Assembly (NCBI RefSeq): GCF_021513135.1
Contig: NZ_CP090981.1
Coordinates: 1,736,001-1,800,000 of the forward strand
From: Vibrio sp. SS-MA-C1-2
Lineage (GTDB): Bacteria > Pseudomonadota > Gammaproteobacteria > Enterobacterales > Vibrionaceae
Reading direction: 5' to 3'
Length of the DNA stretch: 64,000 nucleotides
The notes under the pieces are model-generated. The model searched no databases. It was not told the DNA's origin and worked only from the letters and a program-made list of their open reading frames with translations. Within the stretch, counting starts at the first letter, position 1, and each line of letters starts with the position of its first letter. The position numbers were made by a program, and so were the translations under genes. Positions 4,022-46,248 of the stretch are shown here, in pieces.

Positions 4022-5534
4022 ATGGAATTTAAAAAAAGGTTATTGGTTTCTGCATTAGTGATGGGGTTAATGTCTGGTTGTGTTAATACAACAGAGCAAA
4101 GTGCCGAGCCTTCAGTCGTTGACTTAACCATCGTATCTGCAAATATGTGGCTTAGTTTAAATAAAAACTTTAACAACAAGAACTCCTTTGATCTCGCTAT
4201 TGAAGAGCTAAAAGCCGCAGATGCTGATGTGTTATTACTTTCAGAAGCGGGAGGAGTCAATGCTCGTCTCGCTCAAGAGCTAGGGATGTATTTATGGCAA
4301 GGTTCTCATCAAGTTGCTGATTTAGGGATCTTGTCTAAATACCCTATTGTGAAGGTCATTGATGCTCGAGATCAGGATAAAGGGGTTGACCATGGTGGAA
4401 GTATTGGTGCGGTTATTAATATTAATGGAACTTTAGTTAATGTATGGGCTAACCATCTAGATTGGACCAATTATATAACGTATGACGCACGTGGTGGAAA
4501 TGGTGAGTCATGGCAAGCGAGAGAAAACTGTGAGGTTATTTCAGATAGTGACATTTTAGATAAAATGGATAGACAATCAAGACGTCCTGCCCAAATGGAG
4601 TATGTTCTTGATAAGAATAATCAATTAAATAATAGCAATATTATTTCCATTATCGGTGGTGACTTCAATGAGCCGAGTGGACTTGATTTGGACTACCGAA
4701 ACTCAAACGATGTTTGATCATTCAGGTACGGTGTATGATTTTTTAACTCATCGACTGATTCGTGAAGATGGGTATATTGATAGCTACCGTCAACTTTATC
4801 AAGATCCAGTTACCTATCCTGGAATTACATGGCCTGTGGTACAAGAAGATAGTTGGACTGCAGGAGATAGCTATCTTAAAGAGTGTGGGCGAGCGTTAGA
4901 TGATCGTGATCGTATTGATTTTATCTATTATAACCAAACGCCAAATATAGAACTCAAAGCGGTCTCATTTATTGGGCCAAGAGCAAATACGTTCTTTAGT
5001 AGTCCAGAAGGGAATGATACAGACTACCAATGGCAAGACCCATTTTCAGGCAGTCGAGTGAATAATCAAGGGGAACCTGATTATAATGAACGAGAGTTCG
5101 TCTCTGATCATCTCTGGTATCGTGCAGACTTCATGATAAGAACTGCTGGGGAGTTTGAAACGGTTAGCTCAATTGAATCAGAGCCTATATTCTCGAATGT
5201 AACCATTACAAAACCCAAGAATAAGCAACAAAACAGCGGACAGATCGTTTCATTTACACTCAGTAATTTAGGTTTGTGGGATAATAATCTACAGTATGAA
5301 TTTGAAATTATAGGTAATAAAGAGGGATCGAGAGAGCAGAGTTGGCAAACTATTGGTATTGAAGGTAAGCCATTAGAACAACAACAGTTCACTCTTGAAA
5401 TTAAGCCCGAAACACTTGAGCGATTTAAGCAGTCACTGTTTAGTGATCAACTCCAGATTCGACTACGAAGTGTTGAACCGATAGCGAGTTGGCGCAAGCA
5501 CTATGCCGTTTTAACATTGCCAGCCTTAAAATAG
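4022..5534 (+). pseudogene. Endonuclease/exonuclease/phosphatase-fold lipoprotein, split by a 1-base frameshift
   Basis: The N-terminus has a lipoprotein signal (KKRLLVSALVMGLMSGC), so the product is predicted to be anchored in the envelope. Family signatures follow: SANMW near the start, LLLSEAGG with the metal-binding Glu, WANHLDW, GGDFNEPS, and near the C-terminus DRIDFIYYN and SDHLWY with the catalytic Asp-His. The first reading frame ends at 4717 and the second runs from about 4690 to 5534. Removing one T from TTT at 4687-4689 restores ...NEPSGLDWTTETQTMFDHSG..., giving a protein of about 503 residues. A likely extracellular phosphodiesterase or nuclease. The frameshift may be a sequencing error. 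Confidence 0.75.
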
Positions 5535-5622: not shown

Positions 5623-6309
5623 CTAATTATTCACTACATCAGAAAAAACATTATGAAGATCAAATGTCGACTCATTGCTTAAATTAAGCCCACTCGCTAA
5701 ATGATCTAAATGTGCTTGCATTAATGATTTTGCTCTTTCAGTGTTACCTTCCTCAATGGCTTCAACTAACTCTCTATGCTCTTTTAATGCACATAACGGC
5801 GTGTGTTGAGAAGATTTTTTCCCATACAGAGAAATTAAAAGAGAGCATTGTGAGACCGTGATTTTCTGAAAGTTAAGCAGGGCACTATTTTTTGCCATCT
5901 GTGCCAGTTGAACATGAAAATCTCCCGAAATTCGAATTGCCCTTCCTTGATCACCTTTTTCGATTGCATCTTCTTCTAAATCAATTAGATTTTTAATTTC
6001 TGTTATTTTTTCTTTGGTTCGATTTTCGATGGCTAATTCAAGAATAGCCATCTCAAGGACTTGGCGAGCTTTTATAATCTGTTTGGCTTCATCGATCGTC
6101 GGAGCATAAACCGTCGCGCCTTTATTTGGCTGAATCGTGAGGATATTCTCCATTGAAAGACGAAAAAGGACTTTACGGATTATTGTTCGACTAACAGAAA
6201 ATATCTCACATAAAGACTCTTCACTCAGTTTAGTTTTAGGTGGGATCTTCTGCTCTAGAATCGCATCGAAGATGTGTCTGTATACAATTTCATCCTGTTT
6301 TTTCATCAT
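5623..6309 (-). CDS. GntR-family (FadR/FCD) transcriptional regulator, probable regulator of urate catabolism
   Basis: 228 residues. An N-terminal winged helix (about 1-75; LSEESLCEIFSVSRTIIRKVLFRLSMENIL, then QPNKGATVYAP for the wing) precedes an all-helical FCD effector domain (about 85-215). The FCD metal-site histidines are visible in FHVQLAQMA, EHRELVEAIEEGN and MQAHLDHL. FCD regulators sense carboxylates or similar small metabolites through that metal. It is the last gene of the minus-strand puuE-allA-puuD run, so it is the natural candidate to control the divergent urate operons. A TGTATACA octamer lies within its own start region (6279-6286) and others in the divergent region. Repressor role is inferred. 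Confidence 0.85.
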   Translation of the reverse strand: MMKKQDEIVYRHIFDAILEQKIPPKTKLSEESLCEIFSVSRTIIRKVLFRLSMENILTIQPNKGATVYAPTIDEAKQIIKARQVLEMAILELAIENRTKEKITEIKNLIDLEEDAIEKGDQGRAIRISGDFHVQLAQMAKNSALLNFQKITVSQCSLLISLYGKKSSQHTPLCALKEHRELVEAIEEGNTERAKSLMQAHLDHLASGLNLSNESTFDLHNVFSDVVNN

Positions 6310-6513: not shown

Positions 6514-7776
6514 CTAGTTGGTAATTACAGCGCCATCTTTAATCCACTGACCAAGGATTTCTCGCTCTTCTGGTGTCATCTTTGTAATGTTACCTAAAGG
6601 CATAACATTAGTATTAACAGCTTGCGCAAGAATACGAGTTGAATTTAGCTTTACTTGACTAATATCATCTAAAATAACACCACTTGGTGCAGTCGAGAAG
6701 GCTGAAAAAGTCGGTGATTCAGAATGGCAAGTTGTGCAGCGACCTTTAATGATTGACATAACTTCTTGATGTTGACTCTCTGTATTTGCTGTAGAGGTTG
6801 TATCAATGGTTTCCTCGATAATCACGATATCGGTCTGTTCAGTTATTGATGATTGAGCCATTACTGACGCAGGTTGAACACCAAAATTTCCGGAAGTTAC
6901 ATAGGCTAGACAAATCATACCTAATGCAGCCGTTGGAACCGCCCATGCAAACTTTTGGCTATTGTGACGAGTATTGAAGTAGTGACGAACTAAAATACTG
7001 ATTGCTGCTAATGAAGCCAGTATTAACCAGTTATATTCATTGCCGTAAGTTGAAGGAAAGTGATTACTGATCATAATAAATAAGATCGGTAACGTAAAGT
7101 AGTTGTTATGACGAGAACGTAATAGTCCTTTAGCTGGTAAGCTTGGATCTGGTTGTTCATTGGCTTCGATAGCGGCAACTAAATTTCGCTGAGCGGGCAT
7201 AATCACGCGAAATACGTTGCCTACCATGATGGTACCCATAATCGCACCAACATGGATATACGCGCCACGGCCTGTGAAAATCTGACTAAGTAAATAAGCG
7301 GCTAAGGTTAATAAGGCGAATAAGATCACTCCAAGTAGTACTGGCCTTTTCCCCAATGCTGAATCGCATAAGAAGCTATAGATAAACCAACCTGAAATAA
7401 TCGCGCCAACACCGATAGCAATTGCTCCACCTGAACTTAATCCACTGTCAGGAGAAACCAGATAAATATTCGCATTTAAGTAATAGACAACAGATAGTAA
7501 TGCAACACCGGTAATCCATGTGAAATAGGCTTCCCATTTAAACCAGTGTAAATTTTCAGGCATTTTTTCAGGCGCAAGTTTGTATTTTTCTAAGTGATAA
7601 ATACCACCGCCATGAATAGCCCAAAGATCACCCGTTAAACCTGTTTTAGGATTAACGCGATTTAAGTTGTTTTCTAACCAAATAAAGTAAAATGAAGCAC
7701 CAACCCATGCAACACCCGTAATCATATGAGCCCAACGGATGGCAAGATTCAGCCATTCAACCATATAAGATTCCAT
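6514..7776 (-). CDS. puuD: Urate hydroxylase PuuD (membrane domain plus cytochrome c)
   Basis: 420 residues. About 300 N-terminal residues form a urate-oxidase-type membrane domain with 7-8 hydrophobic helices (start MVEWLNLAIRWAHMITGVAWVGASFYFIWLE is diagnostic, with conserved His and Trp). A linker rich in T/S leads to a C-terminal cytochrome c domain with heme motif CTTCH (Cys347, Cys350, His351) and a likely axial Met in VMPLGN (about 393). The enzyme oxidises urate to 5-hydroxyisourate and passes electrons to the respiratory chain rather than making peroxide. Next acting proteins HIU hydrolase and OHCU decarboxylase are encoded nearby. A pentanucleotide repeat lies 77 bp before its start codon. 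Confidence 0.93.
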   Translation of the reverse strand: MESYMVEWLNLAIRWAHMITGVAWVGASFYFIWLENNLNRVNPKTGLTGDLWAIHGGGIYHLEKYKLAPEKMPENLHWFKWEAYFTWITGVALLSVVYYLNANIYLVSPDSGLSSGGAIAIGVGAIISGWFIYSFLCDSALGKRPVLLGVILFALLTLAAYLLSQIFTGRGAYIHVGAIMGTIMVGNVFRVIMPAQRNLVAAIEANEQPDPSLPAKGLLRSRHNNYFTLPILFIMISNHFPSTYGNEYNWLILASLAAISILVRHYFNTRHNSQKFAWAVPTAALGMICLAYVTSGNFGVQPASVMAQSSITEQTDIVIIEETIDTTSTANTESQHQEVMSIIKGRCTTCHSESPTFSAFSTAPSGVILDDISQVKLNSTRILAQAVNTNVMPLGNITKMTPEEREILGQWIKDGAVITN

Positions 7777-7852
7777 AATATAAATCCTTCTATAATATGA
7801 GAAATACGTTTCTCAATTAGTACTAATTTAGTGTTAGAGCAATAATGTCATT

Positions 7853-7915
7853 GTTCTGTTCTGTTCTGTTCTGTTCTGTTCTGTTCTGTTCTGTTCTGTT
7901 CTGTTCTGTTCTGTT
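7853..7915. repeat. Pentanucleotide microsatellite (CTGTT)12
   Basis: Twelve perfect CTGTT units occupy 7856-7915, preceded by a partial unit; on the transcribed strand this is (AACAG)12. It fills most of the spacer between the allA stop (7937) and the puuD start (7776), beginning 77 bp upstream of that start. Tracts of this kind change length by slipped-strand mispairing. Being outside the coding frames it could alter promoter spacing, RNA structure or read-through from allA into puuD. Confidence 0.95.
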
Positions 7916-7936
7916 TGATTTTATGCGGTATTGTTC

Positions 7937-8464
7937 TTAGGCCGAGGGGGCATCAAGCTCTACATATAATGTTTTATCAAAAAAGTATTCATCACAGTTA
8001 TTACCATCTCCTACACGGTCAACAACAACTTGTAATAAATCATCGTCAAGAGCAATAACGGGATGGTGCCAAACATTTTTGTTATAGCTGACACCTTGAG
8101 TTCCATCACTATAAAAAGCATGTAAATCTTCAATTTGTGGACTTTCGCCCGGTTGAGCAACAACAACTAAAAAGGGGATACCATTAATGGGAATAAATGC
8201 TTGAGATCCTAATGGATGACGCTCAACCATTTCGATACGAAAAGGCATTGATTTTGCTTTAGATTCAAAAAGACTAATAATTGAGTTTCCGCCTTGATCT
8301 AAAGTGTCGGTGTCTGCTAAACGGTGATAACGCTTAGTGCCACCATTATTAATATAAAAAAACTCAGCTTGATTTTTATCAATAACTTGACCAAATGGTT
8401 TAAAATTTTCTGGTGTTAATGGTTCGATTTTTAATGCCAACTTTGTTGTTGCTTCTGCAATCAT
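7937..8464 (-). CDS. allA: Ureidoglycolate lyase
   Basis: Releases glyoxylate and urea from (S)-ureidoglycolate. The protein matches the AllA family over its length: LTPENFKPFGQVID, FYINNGGTKRYHRLAD, ERHPLGSQAFIP, GVSYNKNVWHHPVIAL. I chose ATG 8464 (175 residues) because an AAAGGAAG ribosome site lies 5 bases upstream; an ATG at 8485 is in frame but would place that site inside the gene. Order puuE-uraD-allA with short gaps indicates one transcript. The glyoxylate formed is used by malate synthase G encoded at 14580-16784. Confidence 0.92.
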   Translation of the reverse strand: MIAEATTKLALKIEPLTPENFKPFGQVIDKNQAEFFYINNGGTKRYHRLADTDTLDQGGNSIISLFESKAKSMPFRIEMVERHPLGSQAFIPINGIPFLVVVAQPGESPQIEDLHAFYSDGTQGVSYNKNVWHHPVIALDDDLLQVVVDRVGDGNNCDEYFFDKTLYVELDAPSA

Positions 8465-8507
8465 CTCTACTTCCTTTAAATTCATCGCGACAATTTATTT
8501 AGCTGTG

Positions 8508-9053
8508 TTATAGCTCTTGTAGGCGGAACATTGCGATTTTATTTATCTCTTTAATAGCAGTATTAAACTCAACTTCTGGAGAGTGATGAATTCGAACTTC
8601 AAAAGCATCAAGGATTAAAAATCTATTCGCCCCTTTCACTGCCATGATAAAAGGAAATTGAAATTTTTCCTTATATGCTGAATTTAATTGCTGAAATTTC
8701 GTCATCTCTTCTGGGCTGCATTGATCAATGCCTGCGCCCGCTTGTTCTTTTGTCGATGACTCAGTTAACTCACCATTAATCGCTGCTCGCCCCGCTAAAT
8801 CAGGGTGAAGATTAATTAATTCTAATTTTTTCTCATTGTGACTCTTATCGAGAATGGTTGCCATTTTTCGATGCAATTCATTTATATTGTTGTCTTGCTC
8901 GGATAGCCCATCGGTGTAGGCTAATTCAGCAATCCAGGCACTATGTTCATAAATATCACCAAAAACAGAAAGAAATTGATCTTTACTCATCTCTGAAGGG
9001 GTGACGGTTTTAAATTGATTTTCCGCTGTTAAGCATGTCGTTGCTGTTGTCAT
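8508..9053 (-). CDS. uraD: 2-oxo-4-hydroxy-4-carboxy-5-ureidoimidazoline (OHCU) decarboxylase
   Basis: 181 residues, the usual length. Converts OHCU to (S)-allantoin, the third step after urate hydroxylase and HIU hydrolase. Recognisable family segments are FGDIYEHSAWIAELAY (with the catalytic His), LINLHPDLAGRAA, SSTKEQAGAGIDQCSPEE and FPFIMAVKGANRFLILDAFEVRIHHSPEVEFNTAIKEINKIAMFRLQ. It starts 4 bp after the puuE stop and ends 43 bp before the chosen allA start, so the three genes are probably translated from one message. Confidence 0.93.
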   Translation of the reverse strand: MTTATTCLTAENQFKTVTPSEMSKDQFLSVFGDIYEHSAWIAELAYTDGLSEQDNNINELHRKMATILDKSHNEKKLELINLHPDLAGRAAINGELTESSTKEQAGAGIDQCSPEEMTKFQQLNSAYKEKFQFPFIMAVKGANRFLILDAFEVRIHHSPEVEFNTAIKEINKIAMFRLQEL

Positions 9054-9057
9054 TGTG

Positions 9058-9975
9058 TTAAGACTCCTTCATATCTGGGTGTGGATGATTTTCATGCCAA
9101 TGGTTTGCAATATCGATGCGACGAGTAACCCACACACTGTCAAATTCATTGATATATTTTAGGAAACGTTTAAGAGCTTGAATACGACCAGGGCGTCCAA
9201 TTAAGCGACAGTGTAGACCAATAGACATCATCTTAGGACTTGTAGCCCCCTCTTCATATAAGGCATCAAATGAGTCTTTTAAATATTGAAAGAATTGCTC
9301 GCCTGAGTTAAAGCCTTGTGAGGTGGCAAAACGCATATCATTGACATCTAAAGTATAAGGGATCACTAGTTGTGGTTTTTCCCCTTCGGTATGCCAGTAG
9401 GGGAGATCATCATCATAAGCGTCTGAGTCATAAAGGAAACCGCCTTCTTCAGCCACTAAGGCACGAGTATTATCACTGGTTCTGCCTGTATACCAGCCAT
9501 AAGGGCGCTCTCCGGTTATCTCTTTGATAGCATTGATTGCTTGATACATCTGTTCGCGTTCAGCTTCAATAGAAACATCTTTATAGTCGATCCATCGGTA
9601 TCCATGACTACAAATCTCATGACCCGCATCATGCATCTGCTTGATGATTTCAGGATAACGTTGTGCAGCCATACCAACCGCAAAAATAGTGAGAGGGTAT
9701 TGATATTTTTCAAAAAGGTTTAAAACGCGCCAAACACCAACTCTGGAACCGTATTCATATATAGACTCCATTGAGATATGTCGTTGATTAGGAAAAGGCT
9801 GAGCTCCTGGAATTTCCGAGAGAAAGGCTTCAGATTCTTTATCACCATGGAGAATTGAACGTTCTCCACCTTCCTCATAATTTAAAACAAAAGAAACGGC
9901 AATTTTAGCTTCATTTGGCCATTTTGCATGCGGTGGCTTCCCTTGGTAGCCTTTTAAATCTCTTGGATATTCCAT
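9058..9975 (-). CDS. puuE: Allantoinase PuuE (polysaccharide-deacetylase fold)
   Basis: 305 residues. Hydrolyses allantoin to allantoate. Belongs to the metal-independent PuuE type with a polysaccharide deacetylase fold, not the amidohydrolase AllB type. N-terminal YPRDLKGYQGKPPHAKWPNEAKIAVSF is typical; later YEYGSRVGVWRVLNLFEKY, AGHEICSHGYRWIDY and MMSIGLHCRLIGRPGR are conserved. First gene of a minus-strand operon that is divergent from HIU hydrolase, sharing a 250-bp control region. The product allantoate needs an amidohydrolase or allantoicase that is not present in this window. Confidence 0.93.
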   Translation of the reverse strand: MEYPRDLKGYQGKPPHAKWPNEAKIAVSFVLNYEEGGERSILHGDKESEAFLSEIPGAQPFPNQRHISMESIYEYGSRVGVWRVLNLFEKYQYPLTIFAVGMAAQRYPEIIKQMHDAGHEICSHGYRWIDYKDVSIEAEREQMYQAINAIKEITGERPYGWYTGRTSDNTRALVAEEGGFLYDSDAYDDDLPYWHTEGEKPQLVIPYTLDVNDMRFATSQGFNSGEQFFQYLKDSFDALYEEGATSPKMMSIGLHCRLIGRPGRIQALKRFLKYINEFDSVWVTRRIDIANHWHENHPHPDMKES

Positions 9976-10236
9976 ATCAACCTCCTACGAATGGTTTTCG
10001 ATTATCTTGTATACATTAAGTCATAAAATTGTTAACAATTAAAGTTGTTTGTTCCCGCGGTCTATTTTTTGTGACTTGTAACAAGGTTGTTAATAATATT
10101 TTGATTTTAATGTAGACTTGTATCCATAATAGTAATAATTTTAACCTGTAGATAGAGTTTTTTATTTATTTTTATGAAGTTTTATCTAAGGAAGAGTTAA
10201 TGTAAGCCCAAATAGACAAAGGAGATGGGTGAATTT
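9976..10236. promoter_or_regulatory. Divergent control region of the urate genes
   Basis: Space between puuE (leftward) and HIU hydrolase (rightward). It contains the octamer palindrome TGTATACA at 10008-10015 inside CTTGTATACATTAAG, and a related TTGTATCCA around 10119. The same octamer occurs at 6279-6286 (GntR start) and 10661-10668 (NCS2 permease start). These are candidate sites for the GntR/FCD protein, which often uses short TNGTATACNA-like operators. Inference only. Confidence 0.4.
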
Positions 10237-45591: not shown

Positions 45592-46248
45592 TCAGTATAT
45601 TCAATGAAATATATTTATTCGTTACAGGGAAAGTTAGACCTGACTCAAAAAAAACAAGTAAATTTAATCAAATGATATTCAATGAATTAAAAGTTGATTT
45701 TAATCAAATTTAAACCGATTTTTAAGAGTAGTATATTTCGCAGAAAGTCATCAAGTACCTAATAATTATAATAAATAAAACCATGAAGAATATACGTCTC
45801 TAAATGTTCAGTTCAGTTTATTTAAATAAATAACAGTTGCCTCTGTTTGTATGAGTAGAATAAGAATCCAACTTTTAATTATCATTATGAGACTACTTTT
45901 ATCATTATGAGTTAATTAAATATCAATTTGATCTCTTTATATGTCAATGAATTCCTTGGTTATATAAGTAATAAAGGCTTGTATTAACTGACGTGCAATA
46001 AGTTATTTGATGATGAAGTATTAAAAAGTGTAAATAGTTTAAATAGTTTAAATAGAGTAAAGATTAAAAAATAAAACACCTCACATAAGGTGGAGTAACC
46101 TAATCTTAATTAAAGTTTAAAAAAGCAGACTATATTGCTTTTATACTCAAGTATGAAGAGTATATACGTTAATTTTTTCTTATTAACTTATCAATAAAAA
46201 TAGTGATAGGGAGTGTTTTTCCTATCTTAATTTTATATCTTAGAGTGA

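Follow-up and report, generated by a model that had tools for sequence, protein, structure and literature searches.

A perfect CTGTT pentanucleotide array in the urate operon of Vibrio sp. SS-MA-C1-2, probably a recently expanded and near-neutral microsatellite

The spacer between allA and puuD in the urate operon of Vibrio sp. SS-MA-C1-2 contains a 64-bp perfect TGTTC/AACAG array. This array is probably a recently expanded, lineage-specific microsatellite which is hypermutable and near-neutral in a tolerant spacer of a co-transcribed operon. It lies in a 64,000-nucleotide stretch of DNA, referred to here as the window, and the features needed for the argument are listed below by their positions in the window.

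5623 to 6309, minus strand: GntR/FCD-family regulator, downstream of puuD (PF07729, PF00392)
6514 to 7776, minus strand: puuD, membrane urate oxidase/urate hydroxylase (Pfam PF06181, E 1.8e-125)
7777 to 7936, minus strand: allA-puuD intergenic spacer, 160 bp, containing the array (from the list of open reading frames; single copy in the genome)
7799 to 7814, minus strand: GAGAAA-CGTA-TTTCTC inverted repeat just 5' of the puuD ribosome-binding site (read from the sequence)
7815 to 7828, no strand assigned: 14-bp perfect palindrome AATTAGTACTAATT between the array and puuD, a possible operator (read from the sequence)
7852 to 7915, minus strand (coding strand of the operon): (AACAG)12+AACA array, (TGTTC)12.8 on the plus strand (Tandem Repeats Finder and regex; unique in the genome)
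7937 to 8485, minus strand: allA, ureidoglycolate lyase (NCBIfam, PF04115)
8508 to 9053, minus strand: uraD, OHCU decarboxylase (TIGR03164)
9058 to 9975, minus strand: puuE, allantoinase (TIGR03212)

Family models back the gene order puuE-uraD-allA-puuD of this urate operon. Gaps of 4 and 22 bp separate the first genes, and the four genes are presumably co-transcribed. The product of puuD has a Urate_ox_N domain and a C-terminal CxxCH haem motif, and belongs to the PuuD-type cytochrome c urate oxidases (PF06181). Elsewhere in the neighbourhood, a gene for an endonuclease/exonuclease/phosphatase-family lipoprotein-like protein on the plus strand (4022 to 5534) appears as two overlapping open reading frames in different frames (4022 to 4717 and 4656 to 5534), which points either to a frameshift within the gene or to an error in the sequencing.

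Tandem Repeats Finder reports the array with a period of 5, 12.8 copies, 100% matches and 0 indels. It begins 21 bp past the allA stop codon, and 75 bp separate its end from the puuD ATG (7776, minus strand). The original prediction, made from the DNA letters, had placed a (CTGTT)12 tract at 7853 to 7915, between allA and puuD and 77 bp upstream of the latter. The position between the two genes holds, the identities of both neighbours being supported by NCBIfam and Pfam models, as do the twelve full units and the location upstream of puuD; the start given was one base late, four bases beyond the twelfth unit had been missed, and the distance needs correcting to 75 bp.

The same prediction had called the tract far longer than chance, and this is confirmed. 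Shuffled windows contain zero copies of even three units of the array pattern, and under a model of independent, identically distributed bases the expectation for a 12-unit tract in the 4.3-Mb genome is about 1e-25. In a census that covered 864 kb and drew on each of the three contigs of the genome, pentamer tracts comprise 742 of two units, 2 of three units and a single one of twelve units, which is the array and the sole pentanucleotide tract with at least 4 units. Perfect head-to-tail units thus extend far beyond chance here, as is characteristic of a microsatellite. No di-, tri- or tetranucleotide tract above the thresholds used was found in the same 864 kb, and a pattern search of the whole genome revealed no second CTGTT array of 4 units. 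The window holds another tandem array of a different kind at 46021 to 46061, an imperfect one with a 9-bp unit, TTAAATAGT, in about 4 copies.

Comparison with other Vibrionaceae points to a restricted distribution. The gene directly upstream of puuD is allA in 29 of 29 puuD loci examined, all from relatives more distant than the species or genus level, and none of the 29 spacers contains a CTGTT array, which argues that the array is lineage-specific. These spacers range from 2 to 155 bp and are unrelated in sequence, suggesting that the distance between allA and puuD is under no visible constraint and is free to vary. In one related genus the spacer has a conserved inverted repeat of the type GGACGACGTAAGC...GCAACGGCGTCC (six loci), a possible intra-operon RNA hairpin which is absent from the window.

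The CTGTT unit has also undergone separate expansions in two other Vibrionaceae, where unrelated loci bear arrays of 9 and 11 units; the reversed control pattern gave 0 arrays in 199 genomes. The 11-unit array lies between convergent genes with no gene start nearby, and its flanks are identical to chromosome 2 of Thaumasiovibrio occultus; the orthologous spacer was not recovered in the congener G005. The 9-unit locus is in genome G063. Three sister genomes (89-93% identity) have CCTGTTCTGTT or TCTGTGCTATT at the matching position, which amounts to two units or a degenerate remnant and never to more than 2 intact units (loci L159 and L221 against L222 to L224). The comparison shows that a CTGTT array at this locus grew or shrank by several units between close relatives, and growth is favoured because each of the three sisters has the shorter form. 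The locus is the best available model for the origin of the array in the window. Together with the purity of the array and its absence in the 29 relatives, this difference between 2 and 9 units makes the earlier suggestion that the tract is prone to slippage almost certainly right. Slippage is likely, and would operate in this strain as well; on sequence evidence the array looks like a young microsatellite.

The array probably grew by replication slippage, starting from a short CTGTT seed within the untranslated allA-puuD spacer. In the mRNA it would form an unstructured, U-free AACAG linker from the allA stop codon to the puuD leader, and its unit number would drift fast, probably with hardly any effect on puuD, if any, given that spacer length is not conserved and that the predicted fold of the puuD ribosome-binding site does not depend on the array. 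When arrays of 0 to 30 units were modelled in silico, opening the puuD ribosome-binding region was predicted to cost 6.02-6.08 kcal/mol with 4 units or more, and the value for the puuD start was flat between 10 and 30 units (6.06-6.02 kcal/mol). With this flat accessibility and an ordinary folding energy (z -0.43), a structural control of puuD by the RNA was rejected.

The original prediction had proposed that slippage could make urate use phase-variable by changing promoter spacing or RNA structure, and neither route finds support. Unit number leaves the predicted accessibility of the puuD start unaffected between 10 and 30 units. A consensus scan found no promoter-like pair spanning or abutting the array, a weak negative since such scans miss weak promoters and those that are not sigma-70-dependent. 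Promoter-like pairs are fewer in this region than in shuffled sequence. On the puuD strand, the sole promoter-like pair near the puuD start overlaps the start codon with its -10 box. Switching of allA or puuD by frameshift is impossible, since the array is intergenic and outside any open reading frame on the coding strand; the frames that cross it, a 31-aa ATG open reading frame and two with CTG or ATT starts, are all antisense. Set beside the usual contingency loci, the array showed neither a consensus promoter in a usable position spanning or flanking it, nor a predicted effect of its length on leader RNA structure at the start codon, nor a place within an expressed open reading frame. A literature search found no paper on AACAG/CTGTT arrays or on a phase-variable urate oxidase.

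Three observations count against near-neutrality. The genome is otherwise poor in microsatellites, so that a lone 12-unit tract in an operon spacer could be under selection. The 160-bp spacer of the window is longer than that of any of the 29 relatives examined. Finally, the two palindromes between the array and puuD hint at puuD having its own regulation. Concerning these palindromes, the genome has two occurrences of ATTAGTACTAAT, equal to the reversed control, with near-matches in the window at chance level, and GAGAAACGTATTTCTC has no further close copy; as neither recurs above chance, their reading as operators of a regulon was rejected. Neither CRP-like nor IHF-like sites were found in the allA-puuD spacer. 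An IHF-like consensus match does occur at 10094 to 10106 (minus strand) in the divergent puuE/hiuH intergenic region, and across the entire window such matches number 17, where 9 would be expected.

By analogy with hmw1A and uspA2, the main rival to a near-neutral microsatellite is a graded contingency tuner, in which unit number would set the level of puuD transcription or mRNA stability and so generate subpopulations differing in urate use. We regard this as unlikely, though it deserves to be taken seriously. The 75 bp between the array and the start codon resemble the placement of the hmw tracts (PMC2651432), uspA2 as described in PMC4679880 provides a precedent for a leader tract that can set expression, and the AACAG unit is found inside restriction-modification and sugar-methyltransferase genes elsewhere. 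Opposed to this are the failure of the consensus scan to find a promoter in the part of the spacer that precedes the array, the flat predicted accessibility of the start site, the absence of the array from all 29 relatives examined, and the nature of the target, a catabolic enzyme being unusual for a contingency locus.

Alternatively, the array could act as an RNA element. Unstructured A-rich repeats bind proteins such as Hfq or S1, and the AACAG linker might be a landing pad for Hfq (ARN-type) or ribosomal protein S1, or a spacer resistant to RNase E, which may stabilise the puuD portion of the polycistronic mRNA or set it apart. Predicted folds leave most of the array unpaired, and no terminator-like hairpin interrupts the allA-puuD spacer, both of which suit such a role; the 5-nt period breaks the 3-nt ARN register and the array is not conserved in relatives, leaving the proposal improbable. 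A riboswitch or other known RNA was rejected, there being zero Rfam matches.

A more speculative idea, and a long shot, is a heritable helical-phase toggle. A 5-bp unit is about half a helical turn, so a slip of one unit would turn the upstream DNA through roughly 170 degrees with respect to a puuD promoter; odd and even unit numbers could then differ in how a factor bound upstream in the 3' end of allA faces a puuD promoter close to the AATTAGTACTAATT palindrome, and urate use would be bet-hedged.

There is only a very slight chance that the true unit number is other than 12.8 through an artefact of assembly or sequencing: the units of a tract that slips easily can be miscounted, but 64 bp fits comfortably into a short read, the flanks occur once in the genome, the assembly consists of 3 contigs, and an error might alter the count, not the existence of the array. 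Least probable of all is a relic of an inserted element that carried the repeat along, for although AACAG arrays occur in many other genomes in various contexts, the spacer matches nothing else in the genome significantly (best secondary E 0.18), no element ends are seen, and the flanks of the other CTGTT loci bear no evident resemblance to those in the window. A dispersed element was likewise rejected, as the genome has no second copy of the spacer; PLSDB gave partial matches only, at 60-80% identity and mostly to puuD coding sequence.

The locus is a naturally occurring case of a pentanucleotide array inside an operon spacer and would be useful as a strain-typing marker. The comparison of G063 with its sister species documents a multi-unit array change between close relatives directly, providing a clean natural example of pentanucleotide length change. 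If unit number did change puuD expression, the logic of contingency loci would reach beyond surface antigens and restriction systems to a purine catabolic operon of a marine bacterium.

Known systems resemble the array in part. The hmw1A and hmw2A genes of H. influenzae have heptanucleotide tracts in their promoters, 69-106 bp upstream of the start (PMC2651432). Like the array, these are short tandem tracts of many units which lie outside an open reading frame, about 70-106 bp upstream of the hmw start codon; unlike it, they have a 7-bp unit and lie within a mapped promoter region. Their unit number is known to vary and to change adhesin expression. The AGAT tract of M. catarrhalis uspA2, as described in PMC4679880, is located in the leader, is polymorphic between strains and has a measured effect on expression. 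It shares with the array a place in untranslated leader sequence ahead of a start codon, provided that the array is transcribed, but it is a tetranucleotide tract and serves a surface protein, whereas puuD encodes a catabolic enzyme.

In the length of the unit, the closest parallels are in restriction-modification genes, such as the pentanucleotide tract in H. influenzae hsdM (PMC2651432). Genomes of GTDB species from many phyla contain at least 118 stretches with at least 6 CTGTT units, and AACAG arrays of 6-22 units occur in open reading frames of unrelated bacteria (seven loci). The latter frames encode type ISP proteins, a type I specificity subunit (HsdS), an N6/N4 DNA methylase and surface-sugar-type methyltransferases; the AACAG strand within restriction-modification and methyltransferase frames encodes NRTEQ repeats, and to judge from their sequence these arrays are probably frameshift contingency loci. 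Restriction-modification and surface-modification genes are the usual sites of slippage-driven switching. The tracts in HsdS, type ISP and N6/N4 methylase genes are identical to the array in their AACAG unit and differ in lying inside open reading frames, where changes in unit number shift the reading frame, whereas the array in the window is intergenic. The 11-unit array of T. occultus and the 9-unit array of G063 are like that of the window in unit, bacterial family and intergenic position, at unrelated loci.
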